Source: Sphingomonas ginsengisoli An et al. 2013 (GTDB lineage Bacteria > Pseudomonadota > Alphaproteobacteria > Sphingomonadales > Sphingomonadaceae). Taken from it: a stretch of DNA of 64,000 nucleotides. Location: contig NZ_CP045434.1 in assembly GCF_009363895.1 (NCBI RefSeq), positions 310,001 through 374,000 of the forward strand. Direction: 5' to 3'. The notes below the pieces were generated by a model. The model ran no database searches. It was not told where the DNA came from and worked only from the letters and a program-made list of their open reading frames with translations. Both the position numbers and the translations under genes were made by a program. This document shows positions 37,849 to 50,449 of the stretch, in pieces. Position 1 is the stretch's first letter. Every line of letters begins with the position of its first letter.

Positions 37849-38731
37849 TGCCACCTTGATAGCAGCCGGATCGCTCAATCAGGACAGAATCGACGAGGCG
37901 CTTCGGCTGCTCGCCTCGGCGCGGGTCGACGCCGAGACGTGGAGCTGGCTCGACGAAGGCGACGCTGCCGACGTAATGGTCGAGGAAGCGCCCGAGCGGC
38001 TACAGGAAATCCGGCTGATGCTCGAACGTGGTCTGATGGGCCTCGACGTCGTGGTCCAGCCTGCCGAAGGCCGCGTGAAACGGCTCCTCGTGGCGGACAT
38101 GGATTCGACCATGATCGGGCAGGAGTGCATCGACGAACTCGCCGATTATGCCGGGATGAAGGACGAGATCGCGGCCGTGACCGACGCCGCCATGCGCGGC
38201 GAGATCGACTTCGCCACCGCGCTCCACCAGCGGGTGGCCGCCCTGAACGGCCTCAGCACCCATTGCATCCAGCGCTGCCGCGAAGAGCGCATCCGCCCCA
38301 ATCCGGGGGCGCGGACACTGGTCCAGACGATGCGCGCCCGCGGCGCGGGGACGCTGCTGGTGACCGGCGGCTTCCACGATTTCGCCGATCCCACCGCGGC
38401 CGAACTCGGCTTCACCGAAGTGCGCGCCAACCATCTCGACAGCATCCACGGCCACCTGACCGGTCTCGTCACTGGCGAGATCGTCGACAGCGCGGCCAAG
38501 TGCGAGGCTTTGATCAAGCGCCGCACCCAGATGGGGATCGAGCCGGCGGCGGTGCTGGCGGTCGGCGACGGCGCCAATGACGCGCCGATGATCGCCGAAG
38601 CGGGGCTGGGAGTTGCCTATCACGGCAAGCCCAAGCTGCGCGAAGTCGCCGACGCGCGGATTGATCATAACGACCTCACCGCTCTGCTGTGGGCGCAAGG
38701 CATTCGCCGCGCCGAGTGGGTGACCGGCTAG
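37841..38731 (+). CDS. serB: Phosphoserine phosphatase SerB
   Basis: 296-aa HAD phosphatase for the last step of serine synthesis. An N-terminal ~75-residue ACT-like region precedes the catalytic domain with DMDSTMIGQECIDELA (DxDST), VTGGFHDF and GDGANDAPMIAEAG. The start is the TTG at 37841, with a strong GAGGAGG 8 bases upstream inside miaA; any upstream ATG would add non-homologous residues. The stop is in a CTAG shared with the convergent Sel1/SPOR gene. Confidence 0.92.
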   Translation: MLIATLIAAGSLNQDRIDEALRLLASARVDAETWSWLDEGDAADVMVEEAPERLQEIRLMLERGLMGLDVVVQPAEGRVKRLLVADMDSTMIGQECIDELADYAGMKDEIAAVTDAAMRGEIDFATALHQRVAALNGLSTHCIQRCREERIRPNPGARTLVQTMRARGAGTLLVTGGFHDFADPTAAELGFTEVRANHLDSIHGHLTGLVTGEIVDSAAKCEALIKRRTQMGIEPAAVLAVGDGANDAPMIAEAGLGVAYHGKPKLREVADARIDHNDLTALLWAQGIRRAEWVTG

Positions 38732-39630
38732 CGAACCCGGATCACGACGCAGGGGCTGGTGCCCGCGGCGCGGCAGGCGTCCTGCGCCTCGCCGCGCGTC
38801 GCGAAGGAACCGACCTGCAGCGCGGTCAGTCCGTTTTGGGTCGGCAGGAACGGCTGGCGTCCCGGCAGGCGCGCGCTGATGCGGCCCCACAATTCCTGCG
38901 GCGCGCCCGGACGGCGGAAGGCGCCCAGCTGGATCCGCCAGTCGCCGCCGCCAGCCGGTGCGGCGGCCGCAGCGCTCGGCGGTGGCGGGGCGGGACGACC
39001 CCGCGTCGTGGGGGACGGCGTGACGACAGGCGGCTGGGCCGTGGTTGGCCGCTTCGGTGACGATTGCGCGAGCTTCGGCGCTGGCAGCGCACCCGGGGCG
39101 AGATTGGTCCGCGCCCGCTCCGGCGGCGTGACGAACATCACCACGTCCATCTCCGACAGCGTCTGCTCGGCATCGACCAGCCCCAGCGCCACCGAGCGCT
39201 TGACCATCGCATAGCCGCGCTCGCGTTCGAGCGGGACGCCGTCGCCGTTGAACAGCGCGAGCCCGTAGAACAGCAGAGCGCGCGGCTCGTTGTTCGCCGA
39301 GGCGGCGCGGAGCAGCTTCAGCGCCGAGGCCTTCCGCCCGCTCGAAATGTCGAGCAGCGCGAGGCTGGCCTGGGCCGGGGCGTGGCATTCCTTGGCGGCG
39401 CGGCCGTAGAGCTGGCGCGCGCGCAGGATATTGACCGGCACTCCGCGGCCTGTCTGGTAGGCTTCGGCCAGCCGGTAATTCGCTTCGGCATCGCCGCTCT
39501 TGGCCAGCGGCGTCCAGATCGCGATCGCGCGGGCATTGTCGCCCTGCGCCGCGGCGGCGATGCCGTCCTCGACGCTCGCACCCGGCGCCGGTTCGGCGAC
39601 CACCAGCAGCGCTGCTGCCAACCAGAACAT
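38728..39630 (-). CDS. Sel1-like repeat and SPOR domain protein
   Basis: 300 aa with a signal peptide (MFWLAAALLVVAEPAPGAS). Two to three Sel1-type helical repeats (ANYRLAEAYQTGRGVPV, then LLFYGLALFNGDGVPLERERG) are followed by a Pro/Ala/Thr-rich linker (about 180-240) and a C-terminal SPOR domain (WRIQLGAFRRPG...LQVGSFATRGEA). SPOR domains bind denuded septal peptidoglycan, so this is probably an envelope protein of cell division. GTGGGGGAACG precedes ATG 39630. Confidence 0.86.
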   Translation of the reverse strand: MFWLAAALLVVAEPAPGASVEDGIAAAAQGDNARAIAIWTPLAKSGDAEANYRLAEAYQTGRGVPVNILRARQLYGRAAKECHAPAQASLALLDISSGRKASALKLLRAASANNEPRALLFYGLALFNGDGVPLERERGYAMVKRSVALGLVDAEQTLSEMDVVMFVTPPERARTNLAPGALPAPKLAQSSPKRPTTAQPPVVTPSPTTRGRPAPPPPSAAAAAPAGGGDWRIQLGAFRRPGAPQELWGRISARLPGRQPFLPTQNGLTALQVGSFATRGEAQDACRAAGTSPCVVIRVR

Positions 39631-39734
39631 CGTTCGTTCCCCCACGCCTCGTCCCAAGTCGGGGCGTCTCACATGCAGCTTACCTCATGCGCGCGAGGGG
39701 ACAAGCGGCGCGGCCGCCACAGGGCCCGGCAATC

Positions 39735-39773
39735 TTAACCAGATTTTAGGCGTGGTGCGGGCATGCCGGCATG
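39735..39773 (+). promoter_or_regulatory. Candidate regulatory sites upstream of the orphan parA operon
   Basis: In the 172-base divergent region: a CtrA-like site TTAA-N7-TTAG (39735-39749, 7 of 8 bases of TTAA-N7-TTAA) and, 30 bases before the start codon, a 12-bp perfect palindrome CATGCCGGCATG (39762-39773). The palindrome suits a dimeric ribbon-helix-helix repressor, such as the product of the next gene but one. Both are pattern matches. Confidence 0.35.
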
Positions 39774-39802
39774 GACACGGCCAAATAGGCAAGGGGATTG
39801 GG

Positions 39803-40525
39803 ATGCGCGTTCTGGCTTTGGCATCGCAGAAGGGGGGATCGGGCAAGACGACCCTGTCCGGACATCTCGCGGTGCAGGCGCAGTTGGCTGGGCAGGGGCC
39901 CGTCTGTTTGATCGACATCGATCCGCAGGGCTCGCTGGCCGACTGGTGGAACGAGCGCGAGGCCGACATGCCGGCCTTCGCCCAGACCACGGTGGCGCGC
40001 CTCGCCTCGGACCTCGAGGTGCTTCGCCAGCAGGGCTTCCGCCTAGCGGTGATCGACACCCCGCCGGCGATCACCATGGCGATCCAGAGCGTGATCGCGG
40101 TCGCCGAGCTGATCGTTATCCCGACCCGTCCGAGCCCGCACGACCTGCGCGCCGTCGGCGCTACCGTTGACCTGTGCGACCGTGCCGGCAAGCCGCTGAT
40201 CTTTGTCGTCAACGCGGCGACGCCCAAGGCCAAGATCACCAGCGAAGCCGCGGTTGCGCTGTCGCAGCACGGCACCGTCGCGCCGGTCACCATCCACCAC
40301 CGCACCGATTTCGCCGCCTCGATGATCGACGGCCGGACGGTGATGGAAGTCGACCCCAACGGCCGTTCGGCCCGCGAGGTGGTCGAGCTGTGGGACTATA
40401 TTCACGAGCGTCTCGAAAAGGCGTTCCGCCGCAACGTGTTCGCGACTCCGGCCAGCGGTCCGGTTGGCGCGGTCGCCGCGGCGCCGCGTCCGGTTGGTGG
40501 CTTCGGCCGCCGTGTTGTCGGTTAA
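39803..40525 (+). CDS. Orphan ParA-family ATPase
   Basis: 240-aa cytoplasmic P-loop ATPase. It has a deviant Walker A motif (KGGSGKTTLSGHLA), Walker A' region (LIDIDPQGSLADWW) and VIDTPPAITMAIQSV, the arrangement of ParA partition or positioning ATPases, and no N-terminal HTH, so it is of the ParA type Ib/orphan class. ATG 39803 follows AAGGGGATTGGG; longer frame upstream is non-homologous. Next comes a ribbon-helix-helix-like gene, then a TPR/SPOR lipoprotein, spaced 21 and 17 bases. This resembles cargo-positioning ParA systems rather than chromosomal parAB. Confidence 0.9.
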   Translation: MRVLALASQKGGSGKTTLSGHLAVQAQLAGQGPVCLIDIDPQGSLADWWNEREADMPAFAQTTVARLASDLEVLRQQGFRLAVIDTPPAITMAIQSVIAVAELIVIPTRPSPHDLRAVGATVDLCDRAGKPLIFVVNAATPKAKITSEAAVALSQHGTVAPVTIHHRTDFAASMIDGRTVMEVDPNGRSAREVVELWDYIHERLEKAFRRNVFATPASGPVGAVAAAPRPVGGFGRRVVG

Positions 40526-40546
40526 GCGAAAGGGAAGGGTGCTCCA

Positions 40547-41374
40547 GTGAAGAGCGAACCCCGGGCGTTTGCGTCCCTCTCCTCAGGTCTCCTCGCCCGC
40601 AAGGGCGCCGCGCGGCCGGCCATGCGGCCCCAGGGCTTCGGCCAGGCGGGCGCCAATCTCGACGACCTTGGCTGGAACGACATGGGGCATGATCTGCCCC
40701 GGCCGACCCTCGCGCCGGTCGGCGACGATGGTGAAGTGCCGCAGCTCTCGCGTACCCCGCTCGCCGGGCTGACCCCGATCTCGCCGGTCCACGACCAGCA
40801 GGCCGAGATCGAGGAGCGCTTCGGCGCCTATGGCGATGCCGAGGACGGGGGCGAGGAAGTATCCGAAGTGGACGCTGAGCTCGACGCCGAGATGGATGAG
40901 GGCGAGGACGAGCAGGTCGCGGTGAGCTACGGCTCGCTGACCACCGCGCGCCATGCCGCGCCTATGGCCGACGAGGTCGAGGAACAGGACGAGGACGACA
41001 CGCTCGAGCTCGCCCACCCGGTGACCGCGGTCGTTGCGCCGGTCGCCGAGGCTCCGCAACCGGAGTTCGCGGCCCCTGCGCCCGCGCCGGTGATCCAGTC
41101 CGCGCCGGTCATCCAGGTCATGCCCAAGCCGTCGCTGAAGGCGTCGGTCGTCGCCGAGCCGCGCGGTCGCGCCGAGCCGGCCGCCAAGGGCAAGGCCGCC
41201 TTCACGCTCCGGCTCGATCCGGCGCGTCACCTCAAGCTGCGGCTGGCCTGCGCCATTACCGGCAAGTCCGCTCAGCAGCTCGTCACGCGGGCGCTCGATG
41301 AGCTCCTCGCGTCCATGCCTGAACTCGAAGCGATGGCCGAACGGGCACCGGTCGAGAGGGCGAGTAAACAGTAG
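40547..41374 (+). CDS. Acidic protein with C-terminal ribbon-helix-helix-like domain
   Basis: 275 aa. The N-terminus FASLSSGLLARKGAARPAMR is basic and followed by a DDLGWNDMGHD patch. A very acidic Glu/Asp stretch (about 90-130) and an Ala/Pro-rich linker lead to a C-terminal domain (from about 216: AFTLRLDPARHLKLRLACA, then KSAQQLVTRALDELLA), which has the spacing of a ribbon-helix-helix DNA-binding domain. GTG 40547 follows AAGGGAAGGG. In ParF/ParG systems a flexible tail on an RHH protein stimulates the ParA-type ATPase; a similar role is inferred here. Confidence 0.75.
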   Translation: MKSEPRAFASLSSGLLARKGAARPAMRPQGFGQAGANLDDLGWNDMGHDLPRPTLAPVGDDGEVPQLSRTPLAGLTPISPVHDQQAEIEERFGAYGDAEDGGEEVSEVDAELDAEMDEGEDEQVAVSYGSLTTARHAAPMADEVEEQDEDDTLELAHPVTAVVAPVAEAPQPEFAAPAPAPVIQSAPVIQVMPKPSLKASVVAEPRGRAEPAAKGKAAFTLRLDPARHLKLRLACAITGKSAQQLVTRALDELLASMPELEAMAERAPVERASKQ

Positions 41375-41391
41375 GAAAAAGGGGCCAAGCC

Positions 41392-42765
41392 ATGTCGAAG
41401 ACGCTTCGCGCAAGCACCGCGCTCACGGCCGTCACCGTCGCCGCCAGCCTGATCGCCGGATGCGCCGGCCCCACCGCCAATATGAAGGTCAGCGGCGGCT
41501 TCGCCCGCCCGGTCGACACCCAGCTCGGAATCGCCACCCGCGCCCTCGCGGCGCTCCAGGCCGGCAACAAGGATGAGGCCGTCCGTCTCGCCGAGCGCGC
41601 AGTCGCCGCGACGCCGACCGATGCCGGTTTCCGCTCGCTGCTCGGCAACGTCTACATGGCCGAAGGCCGCTTCGCCTCGGCCGAGACTTCCTACAAGGAT
41701 TCGCTCAGCCTGCTCCCCGACCAGGGCGCGGTGGCGATGAAGCTGGTGCTGAGCCAGATCGCCCAGGGCAAGAATGCTGAGGCGCTGGCGATGCTCGACC
41801 AGCTGCGCAACACCACCGACCCGGCCGATGTCGGGCTGGCGATGGCGCTGGCCGGCCAGCCGGGCAATGCGGTCGCTTTGCTCGATGAGGCTGCCCGCCG
41901 GCCCGAGGCCGACGCCCGCACCCGCCAGAATTTGGCGCTTGCCCATGCGCTTGCCGGCGACTGGGACAATGCCCGCGTGGTCGCGGCGCAGGACGTTCCC
42001 GCCGACCAGGTCGATGCCCGCATCGCCGAGTGGATGAAGCTCGCCGCGCCGCAGGCCGGGGCGACCAAGGTCGCGACGCTGATCGGGGTCACCCCCGCCG
42101 CCAGCGATCCCGGCCAGCCGATCCGCCTCGCGCTGCGCGACGCCACCGGCAGCGTCCGCATGGCCGAGGCCGCGCCGGCGCCCGTCGAAGTGGCGGCAGC
42201 CGCGCCGGCCCCGATGATCGCGGCGACCGCCGCCGCCGACACCACCGTCATGAATGACGCCGGCTTCGCCGCGCCTGCAGCGCCGGTGGTTTCGGCCCCG
42301 GTCGCGGTCGCCGCCAGCGCGGTCACCGTCGCCTTGCCCGCCGCCACTCCGGCGCCCGAGCAGGCCGGTCCGCTCGCCGACATCGCCGAAAACCTCGACG
42401 CGCTCCGCCACGAGCCGGTCCGCGCCTCGGGCGCCCTGCCCAAGGTCAGCGAGCTGCGCCGCAGCGCAGCGATTCGCTTCGCCAACTCGGGCGTGGTGGT
42501 CCAGCTCGGCGCCTACGGGTCGCAGGGCAAGCTGCAGGCCGGCTGGGCCAAGTTGTCGCGCAGCCACAAGGGCGTGCTCGGTCGCTATGTGCCCACGACC
42601 GCGCACTTCAAGGCGCCGATCGGCCCAGTCTATCGCCTGAGCCTGCAGGGGTTCGCTTCGAACGCCGAAGCGCGCCAGGTGTGCGAAGGCCTGAAGAGCG
42701 CGGGCGCGGCCTGCTTCGTCCGCAATGTCGCGGGCGACGCGCCGATCGCCTTCGCTAGCCGCTAG
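41392..42765 (+). CDS. TPR lipoprotein with C-terminal SPOR domain
   Basis: 457 aa. Lipobox LIAGC near residue 24 marks an outer-membrane or periplasmic lipoprotein. TPR-like repeats fill about 40-200, then comes a long Ala/Pro/Val-rich linker (about 220-330). The C-terminal SPOR domain (VVVQLGAYGSQGKLQAGW, then YRLSLQGFASNAEARQVCEGL) binds septal glycan strands. It is 17 bases after the RHH-like gene and ends in a CTAG shared with convergent pyrB. A link between an internal ParA positioning system and the septum is inferred. Confidence 0.88.
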   Translation: MSKTLRASTALTAVTVAASLIAGCAGPTANMKVSGGFARPVDTQLGIATRALAALQAGNKDEAVRLAERAVAATPTDAGFRSLLGNVYMAEGRFASAETSYKDSLSLLPDQGAVAMKLVLSQIAQGKNAEALAMLDQLRNTTDPADVGLAMALAGQPGNAVALLDEAARRPEADARTRQNLALAHALAGDWDNARVVAAQDVPADQVDARIAEWMKLAAPQAGATKVATLIGVTPAASDPGQPIRLALRDATGSVRMAEAAPAPVEVAAAAPAPMIAATAAADTTVMNDAGFAAPAAPVVSAPVAVAASAVTVALPAATPAPEQAGPLADIAENLDALRHEPVRASGALPKVSELRRSAAIRFANSGVVVQLGAYGSQGKLQAGWAKLSRSHKGVLGRYVPTTAHFKAPIGPVYRLSLQGFASNAEARQVCEGLKSAGAACFVRNVAGDAPIAFASR

Positions 42766-50404: not shown

Positions 50405-50420
50405 TCGCCTGCGCTGCTAA

Positions 50421-50449
50421 TTGACGCTTAACTCGTGCCGAAATATTGT
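50421..50449 (+). promoter_or_regulatory. Sigma-70-like promoter before the exported-protein cluster
   Basis: TTGACG (50421-50426), 17 bases, TATTGT (50444-50449), ideal spacing, in the gap after gatB. Predicted start near 50457 gives a short leader with GGGGGA before TTG 50478. One of the best promoter matches in the window. Confidence 0.6.

Follow-up and report, generated by a model that had tools for sequence, protein, structure and literature searches.

What might a chromosomal ParA ATPase position when its partner is a ribbon-helix-helix (RHH) protein, and when the genes around the pair encode proteins with the SPOR domain, which is expected to bind the septal cell wall? The question is raised by a locus in a 64,000-nucleotide stretch of the Sphingomonas ginsengisoli genome (the window, hereafter: positions 310001-374000 of the single-contig 3.04 Mb genome, contig NZ_CP045434.1), where genes for a small ParA, an adaptor protein with a C-terminal RHH domain and a TPR-SPOR lipoprotein follow one another. 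We suggest, with a probability of roughly one half, that ParA and the adaptor are a plasmid pair of the ParF/ParG type that is now a chromosomal core element of the Sphingomonadales and is coupled to the division site. For many bacteria it is an unsettled question how the nucleoid is coordinated with the closing septum.

An earlier reading of this DNA, made from the sequence alone, had described the trio with its gaps of 21 and 17 bases, a CtrA-like box at 39735 and a palindrome at 39762, all of which were borne out when the letters were read again. The premises on which that reading stood hold as well: the middle gene is structurally an RHH gene, the trio is conserved together, and the canonical parB lies with another ParA.

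Results

A ParF-Type ATPase and Its Peptide-Bearing Partner

The window ParA is small, carries a deviant Walker A motif (KGGSGKT, residues 10-16) and is without an N-terminal helix-turn-helix (HTH). It matches Pfam AAA_31 (E 9e-13) and, below that model's cut-off, the NCBIfam model ParA_partition NF041546 (E 3.5e-48). Its best sequence matches in the PDB are 5u1g and ParF (4dzz; E 6e-14 for ParF). The adaptor family has just two PDB matches at E ≤ 10, and ParG is among them, weakly (E 0.1); the likening of the pair to ParF and ParG in the sequence-only reading was therefore apt. The MipZ of the genome is another gene (E 3e-108), and the MipZ family match of the window ParA spans residues 3-54 only, not the full length. 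The sole ParB above cut-off lies at about 2.2 Mb (2206 kb) of the same chromosome and adjoins another ParA; the partner of the window ParA is the RHH protein. At about 2505-2519 kb of G000:C1 (L002, L214) we also noted a further ParA-like gene (217 aa) and, about 14 kb from it, a ParB-like frame of 727 aa that scores under the cut-off of its family; the two perhaps belong to a mobile element.

Within the order, ParA has a match at E ≤ 1e-60 in 122 of 147 Sphingomonadales genomes, one in each, and across ten loci of the genus its identity is 87-93%, compared with 55-76% for the housekeeping neighbor PyrB. The PHROGs collection offers one generic ParA family for ParA and no family for the adaptor, a phage search gave five records, each below 60% identity, and none of the trio proteins has a defense-system match in PADLOC at E ≤ 1e-3.

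The adaptor joins a basic N-terminal peptide to the RHH domain through a long acidic linker. The RHH assignment is supported by a Pfam search, by profile comparison, by the predicted structure and by structure comparison (VIA-align against six chains, modest Z); in the predicted structure the linker has low pLDDT (predicted local distance difference test) values except for a helix at residues 80-96. A search for relatives found the adaptor in 47 of 61 genomes, the source genome counted.

The peptide goes closely with the ParA gene. Its consensus, LxxxLLARKGxAxP, recurs at the adaptor start beside ParA across the class, and in 177 of 198 loci, a partly redundant set in which the motif test was run independently of ORF starts, an open reading frame (ORF) with the motif is found no more than 420 bp downstream of ParA. 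Read by eye, the 21 loci without a motif call comprise eight motif variants, two motifs cut by a contig end, two loci cut before the partner, two interrupted ParA copies, three distant ParAs (≤50% identity), one masked locus (L206), one weak variant at most (L121), and L145 and L164, which are without the motif. Starting instead from the peptide, a 29-base degenerate pattern gave 37 matches in 34 of 385 class genomes; 35 of them come immediately after a ParA that belongs to this subfamily (≥58% identity), and the other two are short frames with no ParA nearby. The pattern written backwards gave at least 15 matches in the same 385 genomes, for which only the count was taken. Since the 29-base pattern is strict, many adaptors are missed by it. 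The peptide is specific to this ParA subfamily, and the linkage is near-exclusive. One looser degenerate pattern found no other peptide-bearing protein in the source genome, its own backwards control also matching once, and in the literature the string LLARKG was found in one unrelated paper only.

Counterparts on Plasmids

Relatives of ParA at E ≤ 1e-20 are present in 608 of 72,556 plasmid records, four of them at 60-80% identity. We read 14 plasmid loci, hand-picked among the 40 listed of the 608 records: the peptide or a close variant stands just downstream of ParA in 13, and L224 has a degenerate form. Plasmid members of the subfamily carry the peptide on small RHH proteins, and the adaptor family of plasmids aligns with that of the window over the RHH domain (hhalign probability 97.8, E 1.3e-12). 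Because plasmids hold such ParA-peptide-RHH counterparts, the chromosomal pair is most simply explained as a domesticated plasmid partition pair; the transfer would have run from plasmid to chromosome.

These plasmid loci also lend themselves to a narrower explanation, that the pair is a DNA-segregation module only, a fixed plasmid partition system acting at RHH-bound sites, with the SPOR genes as neighbors that have an envelope job of their own. No SPOR gene was seen in the annotated neighborhood of the plasmid loci read (L095 is unannotated), and the RHH domain resembles ParG and other DNA-binding RHH proteins (weak sequence scores, modest Z). For reasons given in the next sections, we regard this explanation as possible and somewhat doubtful.

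A Neighborhood Kept in the Sphingomonadales

A second SPOR gene, of Sel1-SPOR type, is divergent just upstream of ParA, so that the locus has two SPOR genes and the trio forms one of its arms. SPOR is above the Pfam cut-off in both window SPOR genes; in the lipoprotein, TPR_19 (E 6e-13) and SPOR (E 7e-9) both exceed theirs, and the lipobox cysteine is kept in at least 90% of 16 aligned sequences. The features of the locus are collected in Table 1.

Table 1. Features of the ParA-adaptor-SPOR locus (positions in the window)
Feature	Position	Strand	Matches
ParA-family ATPase, ParF type, 240 aa, C-terminal extension ending FGRRVVG	39803..40525	+	Pfam, NCBIfam, PDB
Adaptor (partner protein) of 275 aa, started by GTG, with basic N-terminal peptide, acidic linker and RHH	40547..41374	+	
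N-terminal peptide LSSGLLARKGAARP, adaptor residues 11-24, candidate ParA-activating peptide	40577..40618	+	
Acidic variable linker, adaptor residues 31-205, net charge -32	40637..41161	+	
RHH domain, adaptor residues 215-263	41189..41335	+	
TPR-SPOR lipoprotein, 457 aa, lipobox Cys24	41392..42765	+	
SPOR domain of the lipoprotein, residues 365-444	42484..42723	+	Pfam
Divergent Sel1/TPR-SPOR protein, conserved locus neighbor	38728..39672	-	Pfam SPOR E 3e-9, Sel1 E 3e-7
CtrA-like box TTAA-N7-TTAG (TTAACCAGATTTTAG), start 68 bases 5' of the ParA ATG	39735..39749	+	
12-bp perfect palindrome CATGCCGGCATG, probably incidental	39762..39773	none	

Among 71 loci of the order with ParA, 51 have the arrangement SPOR< ParA> adaptor> SPOR>, nine have the trio with the upstream SPOR gene undetected, six (family f5) read ParA> adaptor> SPOR< SPOR>, and five are incomplete or lack parts (L145, L151, L153, L159 and L164, of which L151 is cut by a contig end). 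This set is biased, since part of it was fetched through the adaptor or SPOR; in 40 loci chosen from the 122 ParA matches and spread by hand over families, the same four classes number 22, 7, 6 and 5. ParA, adaptor and SPOR stand in a row in 29 of these 40, the gap from adaptor to SPOR being at most 323 bp; all four genes are present and rearranged in six more, and an ORF with the motif follows ParA in 37. The preservation of the neighborhood in two arrangements argues against a module that serves DNA segregation only.

The surroundings of the locus bear on another explanation, in which the pair positions a different envelope or polar machine (chemoreceptors, pili or polysaccharide export), in the manner of PpfA or BcsQ, and the SPOR proteins are part of that machine. 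Orphan ParAs are described as serving such cargos in excerpts of PMC9178275 and PMC10241942, and in Sphingomonas melonis motility and exopolysaccharide are under the control of CtrA (cited in an excerpt of PMC8921679). Beyond the SPOR genes, however, the genus flanks that were tested hold miaA, serB, pyrB and ruvX, which are not machine genes, and with the BcsQ model TIGR03371 the window ParA scores 52.8 bits against a cut-off of 157.85. We therefore think this explanation unlikely.

Peptide and SPOR in One Protein

In an evenly drawn sample of 190 genomes of the class, four (G061, G069, G203 and G183) encode, directly 3' of ParA, a protein that unites the peptide and a C-terminal SPOR domain with one transmembrane segment (TM). 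When named genomes were scanned with those four, 46 loci were found (scan and sample overlap in some genomes): peptide and SPOR share one frame in 32, two are cut or broken (L189, L200), and 12 are of the separate-SPOR type. Among the genomes found are Tepidicaulis marinus, Parvibaculum indicum, Parvibaculum sedimenti and metagenome-assembled genomes labeled Rhodobiaceae, Sneathiellales and Hyphomicrobiales. SPOR is above the Pfam cut-off in all four fusion adaptors scanned, and a TM is found in all 34 distinct adaptors tested from the fusion group, with the N-terminal side more positive in 29, equal in four and less positive in one; TM and charge bias agree with an orientation in which the N-terminus is inside and SPOR outside.

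These fusions speak against a module for DNA segregation only, as the same peptide is here carried on TM-SPOR proteins of other lineages. Our main reason for taking the septal link seriously is that a single ParA subfamily is associated with SPOR proteins in two ways, as neighbors in one order and through fusion elsewhere. The sequence-only reading had linked the operon to the septum, and this part of it gains indirect support from the fusions; localization of the proteins at the septum is a prediction.

Four genomes (G069, G203, G183 and G386) have both a SPOR-type and an RHH-type pair, and two of them, G069 and G203, bear the variant LTADMM.. as their RHH-type peptide. Such genomes are a natural test of the specificity of adaptor for ParA.

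Three further features of ParA and the adaptors were observed. An FGRR-like ParA tail (window 40500-40525) is found in 78 of 89 chromosomal ParAs with RHH adaptors in the order and in 15 of 26 in the class, a class set that includes one copy of the window ParA and three distant ParAs; it is missing from fusion ParAs (0/34) and plasmid ParAs (0/14). A CxC motif (CxCL, CICG) occurs within the last 45 adaptor residues, after the RHH domain, in 22 of 31 adaptors from other families of the order (for example L040, L044, L062 and L067) and in 11 of 16 RHH adaptors of the class, and is scarce elsewhere (window's family 1/56, fusions 0/33, plasmid forms 0/6); a metal or redox site is possible. The peptide-bearing adaptor of L070 (G223) has a C-terminus that by eye resembles neither RHH nor SPOR, possibly a third cargo domain.

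Promoter Region and Chromosomal Position

The 12-bp palindrome had been put forward as an operator for the RHH protein. It is present, yet it is not conserved in the genus alignment, and no direct repeats of the centromere type were found in 39640-39810, the latter a point against a pure segregation module. Both results bear on the idea that the locus is a regulatory relic, in which RHH autoregulates the operon, ParA modulates and nothing is positioned. RHH proteins of the adaptor's kind are often repressors, and from this the idea draws its appeal. Against it, the genus alignment has no conserved operator-like palindrome apart from the CtrA-like box, direct repeats are lacking in 39640-39810, ParA is unusually conserved, and SPOR replaces RHH in the fusion adaptors; we consider it very improbable.

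A box of the type TTAA-N7-TTAG is found in 28 of 28 loci of the genus, in 20 of 27 from elsewhere in the family, in 4 of 33 from other families, and in neither the fusion loci (0/34) nor the class RHH loci (0/21); composition shuffles lead one to expect 0.07, 0.22, 1.52, 0.26 and 0.29 boxes in these five groups, respectively, and a control stretch inside ParA has none. TTAACCNNNNNTTAG has a single occurrence in the 3.04 Mb genome. A second TTAA-N7-TTAG match lies in the window at 50417-50431 (minus strand). The CtrA consensus is given as TTAA-N7-TTAA in an excerpt of PMC9437464, and since the box matches it with one deviation, control of the operon by CtrA is plausible in the window's family. 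According to an excerpt of PMC2877005 the CckA-ChpT-CtrA relay is kept in Sphingomonadales; loss of ctrA is described as harmless to growth in Sphingomonas melonis (excerpt of PMC8116508).

A fixed position relative to the origin or terminus was considered and rejected: across 34 genomes from three families, the relative distance of the locus from parB varies between 0.07 and 1.0 (replicon length exact for 25 genomes and rounded for nine). Within the genus the distance is similar, 0.71-0.95 of half a chromosome in 15 genomes. The latter would suit a segregation module, the former speaks against one.

Discussion

A Proposed Link between Nucleoid and Septum

How might the ParA-adaptor pair be coupled to the division site? 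In the scheme we propose, ParA-ATP would coat the nucleoid, and the LxxxLLARKGxAxP peptide would contact ParA and trigger ATP hydrolysis, by analogy with the basic N-terminal stretches of ParG, Spo0J and PomX. The RHH dimer would keep the adaptor on DNA or on another cargo. Binding to the septal wall would fall to the SPOR proteins of the two flanking genes, and the action of ParA on the nucleoid would in this way be coupled to constriction in time and place; in the window's family alone, the timing may come through the CtrA-type box. In the Parvibaculum-like relatives, where a SPOR protein of the inner membrane would have the peptide as its cytoplasmic tail, the coupling could be direct: the septal fusion protein might itself act as the stimulator of ParA, and the nucleoid would be cleared or pulled where the septum closes. 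The net effect would be that division site and nucleoid stay in register.

More generally, and more tentatively, we suspect that one ParA subfamily reads a single peptide code that has been grafted onto small RHH proteins of plasmids, long RHH proteins of chromosomes and SPOR proteins of the inner membrane, and that through SPOR the septal peptidoglycan becomes a cargo of nucleoid-bound ParA, which would set the system apart from MipZ, Min, Noc and PomXYZ. The fusion of the peptide to a protein predicted to bind the septal wall hints that the motor may have the division site as its cargo.

Several observations weigh against coupling to the division site. One set comes from genomes without ParA. 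Twenty of the 25 ParA-less genomes of the order were taken (five unnamed ones were left out); 18 have no ParA relative at E ≤ 1e-15, and two have one at 34-37% identity. A SPOR-TPR protein (E ≤ 1e-30) is nevertheless found in 10 of the 20, compared with 15 of 15 ParA-bearing controls, with the qualification that a SPOR-TPR profile match is not proof of orthology and that in control G257 it lies away from the ParA locus. Around the ten SPOR loci of ParA-less genomes (about 1.5 kb) the adaptor is gone, one chance motif frame apart, and five of the ten hold a lone divergent SPOR pair. ParA and adaptor are lost together, the SPOR genes can stay, and the SPOR-TPR protein thus has a life without ParA, which speaks for a module confined to DNA segregation. 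Strict co-loss of SPOR with ParA was not seen. Outside the order, no SPOR gene was detected at RHH-type ParA loci in, mostly, about 6 kb on each side with a home-made SPOR model.

Other points are of the same kind. The window's SPOR protein is a predicted lipoprotein that cannot touch cytoplasmic ParA, and its link to ParA must therefore be indirect; and since the genome has a MipZ, placement of the Z-ring is probably served already. Within the window's family, L145 (G346) has a divergent ParA (71%) and the SPOR genes with no adaptor between them; at L164, ParA is accompanied by what looks by eye like an RHH gene, with neither the peptide nor a SPOR gene. Beyond the family the box is near chance, and it is absent in the fusion loci. 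Finally, the fusion label changes twice on a quick ParA tree and the wider fusion clade is weakly supported; as that tree has many weak forks and long branches, it is only indicative of fusion origins.

If coupling of the pair to the division site is nonetheless correct, a membrane protein that binds the septal wall and activates ParA would be a direct physical link from peptidoglycan remodeling to the nucleoid. The locus would then exemplify the conversion of a plasmid partition pair into a core chromosomal element in a large environmental order, and the shared peptide offers a search handle for the partners of other orphan ParAs.

Comparison with Known Systems

A close known system is ParF/ParG (plasmid TP228, type Ib), which likewise has a small ParA without an HTH and, downstream, an RHH partner with a basic N-terminus. 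The window pair differs in being a chromosomal core gene set, in its longer ParA tail (FGRR), long acidic linker and LxxxLLARKGxAxP peptide, in the SPOR genes alongside, and in having no direct repeats at its promoter (39640-39810). In ParABS the partner is ParB, whereas here it is the RHH protein. FtsN, DamX and RgsS, which have a single TM with SPOR outside, resemble the fusions in this layout and share the SPOR domain with the window protein, which differs from them as a TPR lipoprotein.

Likenesses to other ParA systems are of description. PomXYZ of Myxococcus xanthus is a division-linked ParA ATPase with an activator that has a basic N-terminal peptide (excerpt of PMC7993993); PomX, however, has a coiled-coil scaffold domain, whereas the system of the window is linked via SPOR proteins and that of the fusions via TM-SPOR. 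PpfA/TlpT of chemoreceptors and McdA/McdB of carboxysomes serve other cargos; in each, a ParA-like ATPase works with a partner that is not a ParB and carries a basic extension at its N-terminus (same source). The same excerpt proposes that activators of ParA/MinD proteins take the form of basic N-terminal peptides grafted on varied domains.

The sequence-only reading knew of no described system of this composition. That held for the composition as a whole in the open-license literature searched, where no description of a SPOR protein as a ParA activator was found; a ParA with an RHH partner was already known. ParA-plus-activator systems are familiar, and what appears new here is the proposed peptide code and the fusion of the peptide to SPOR.

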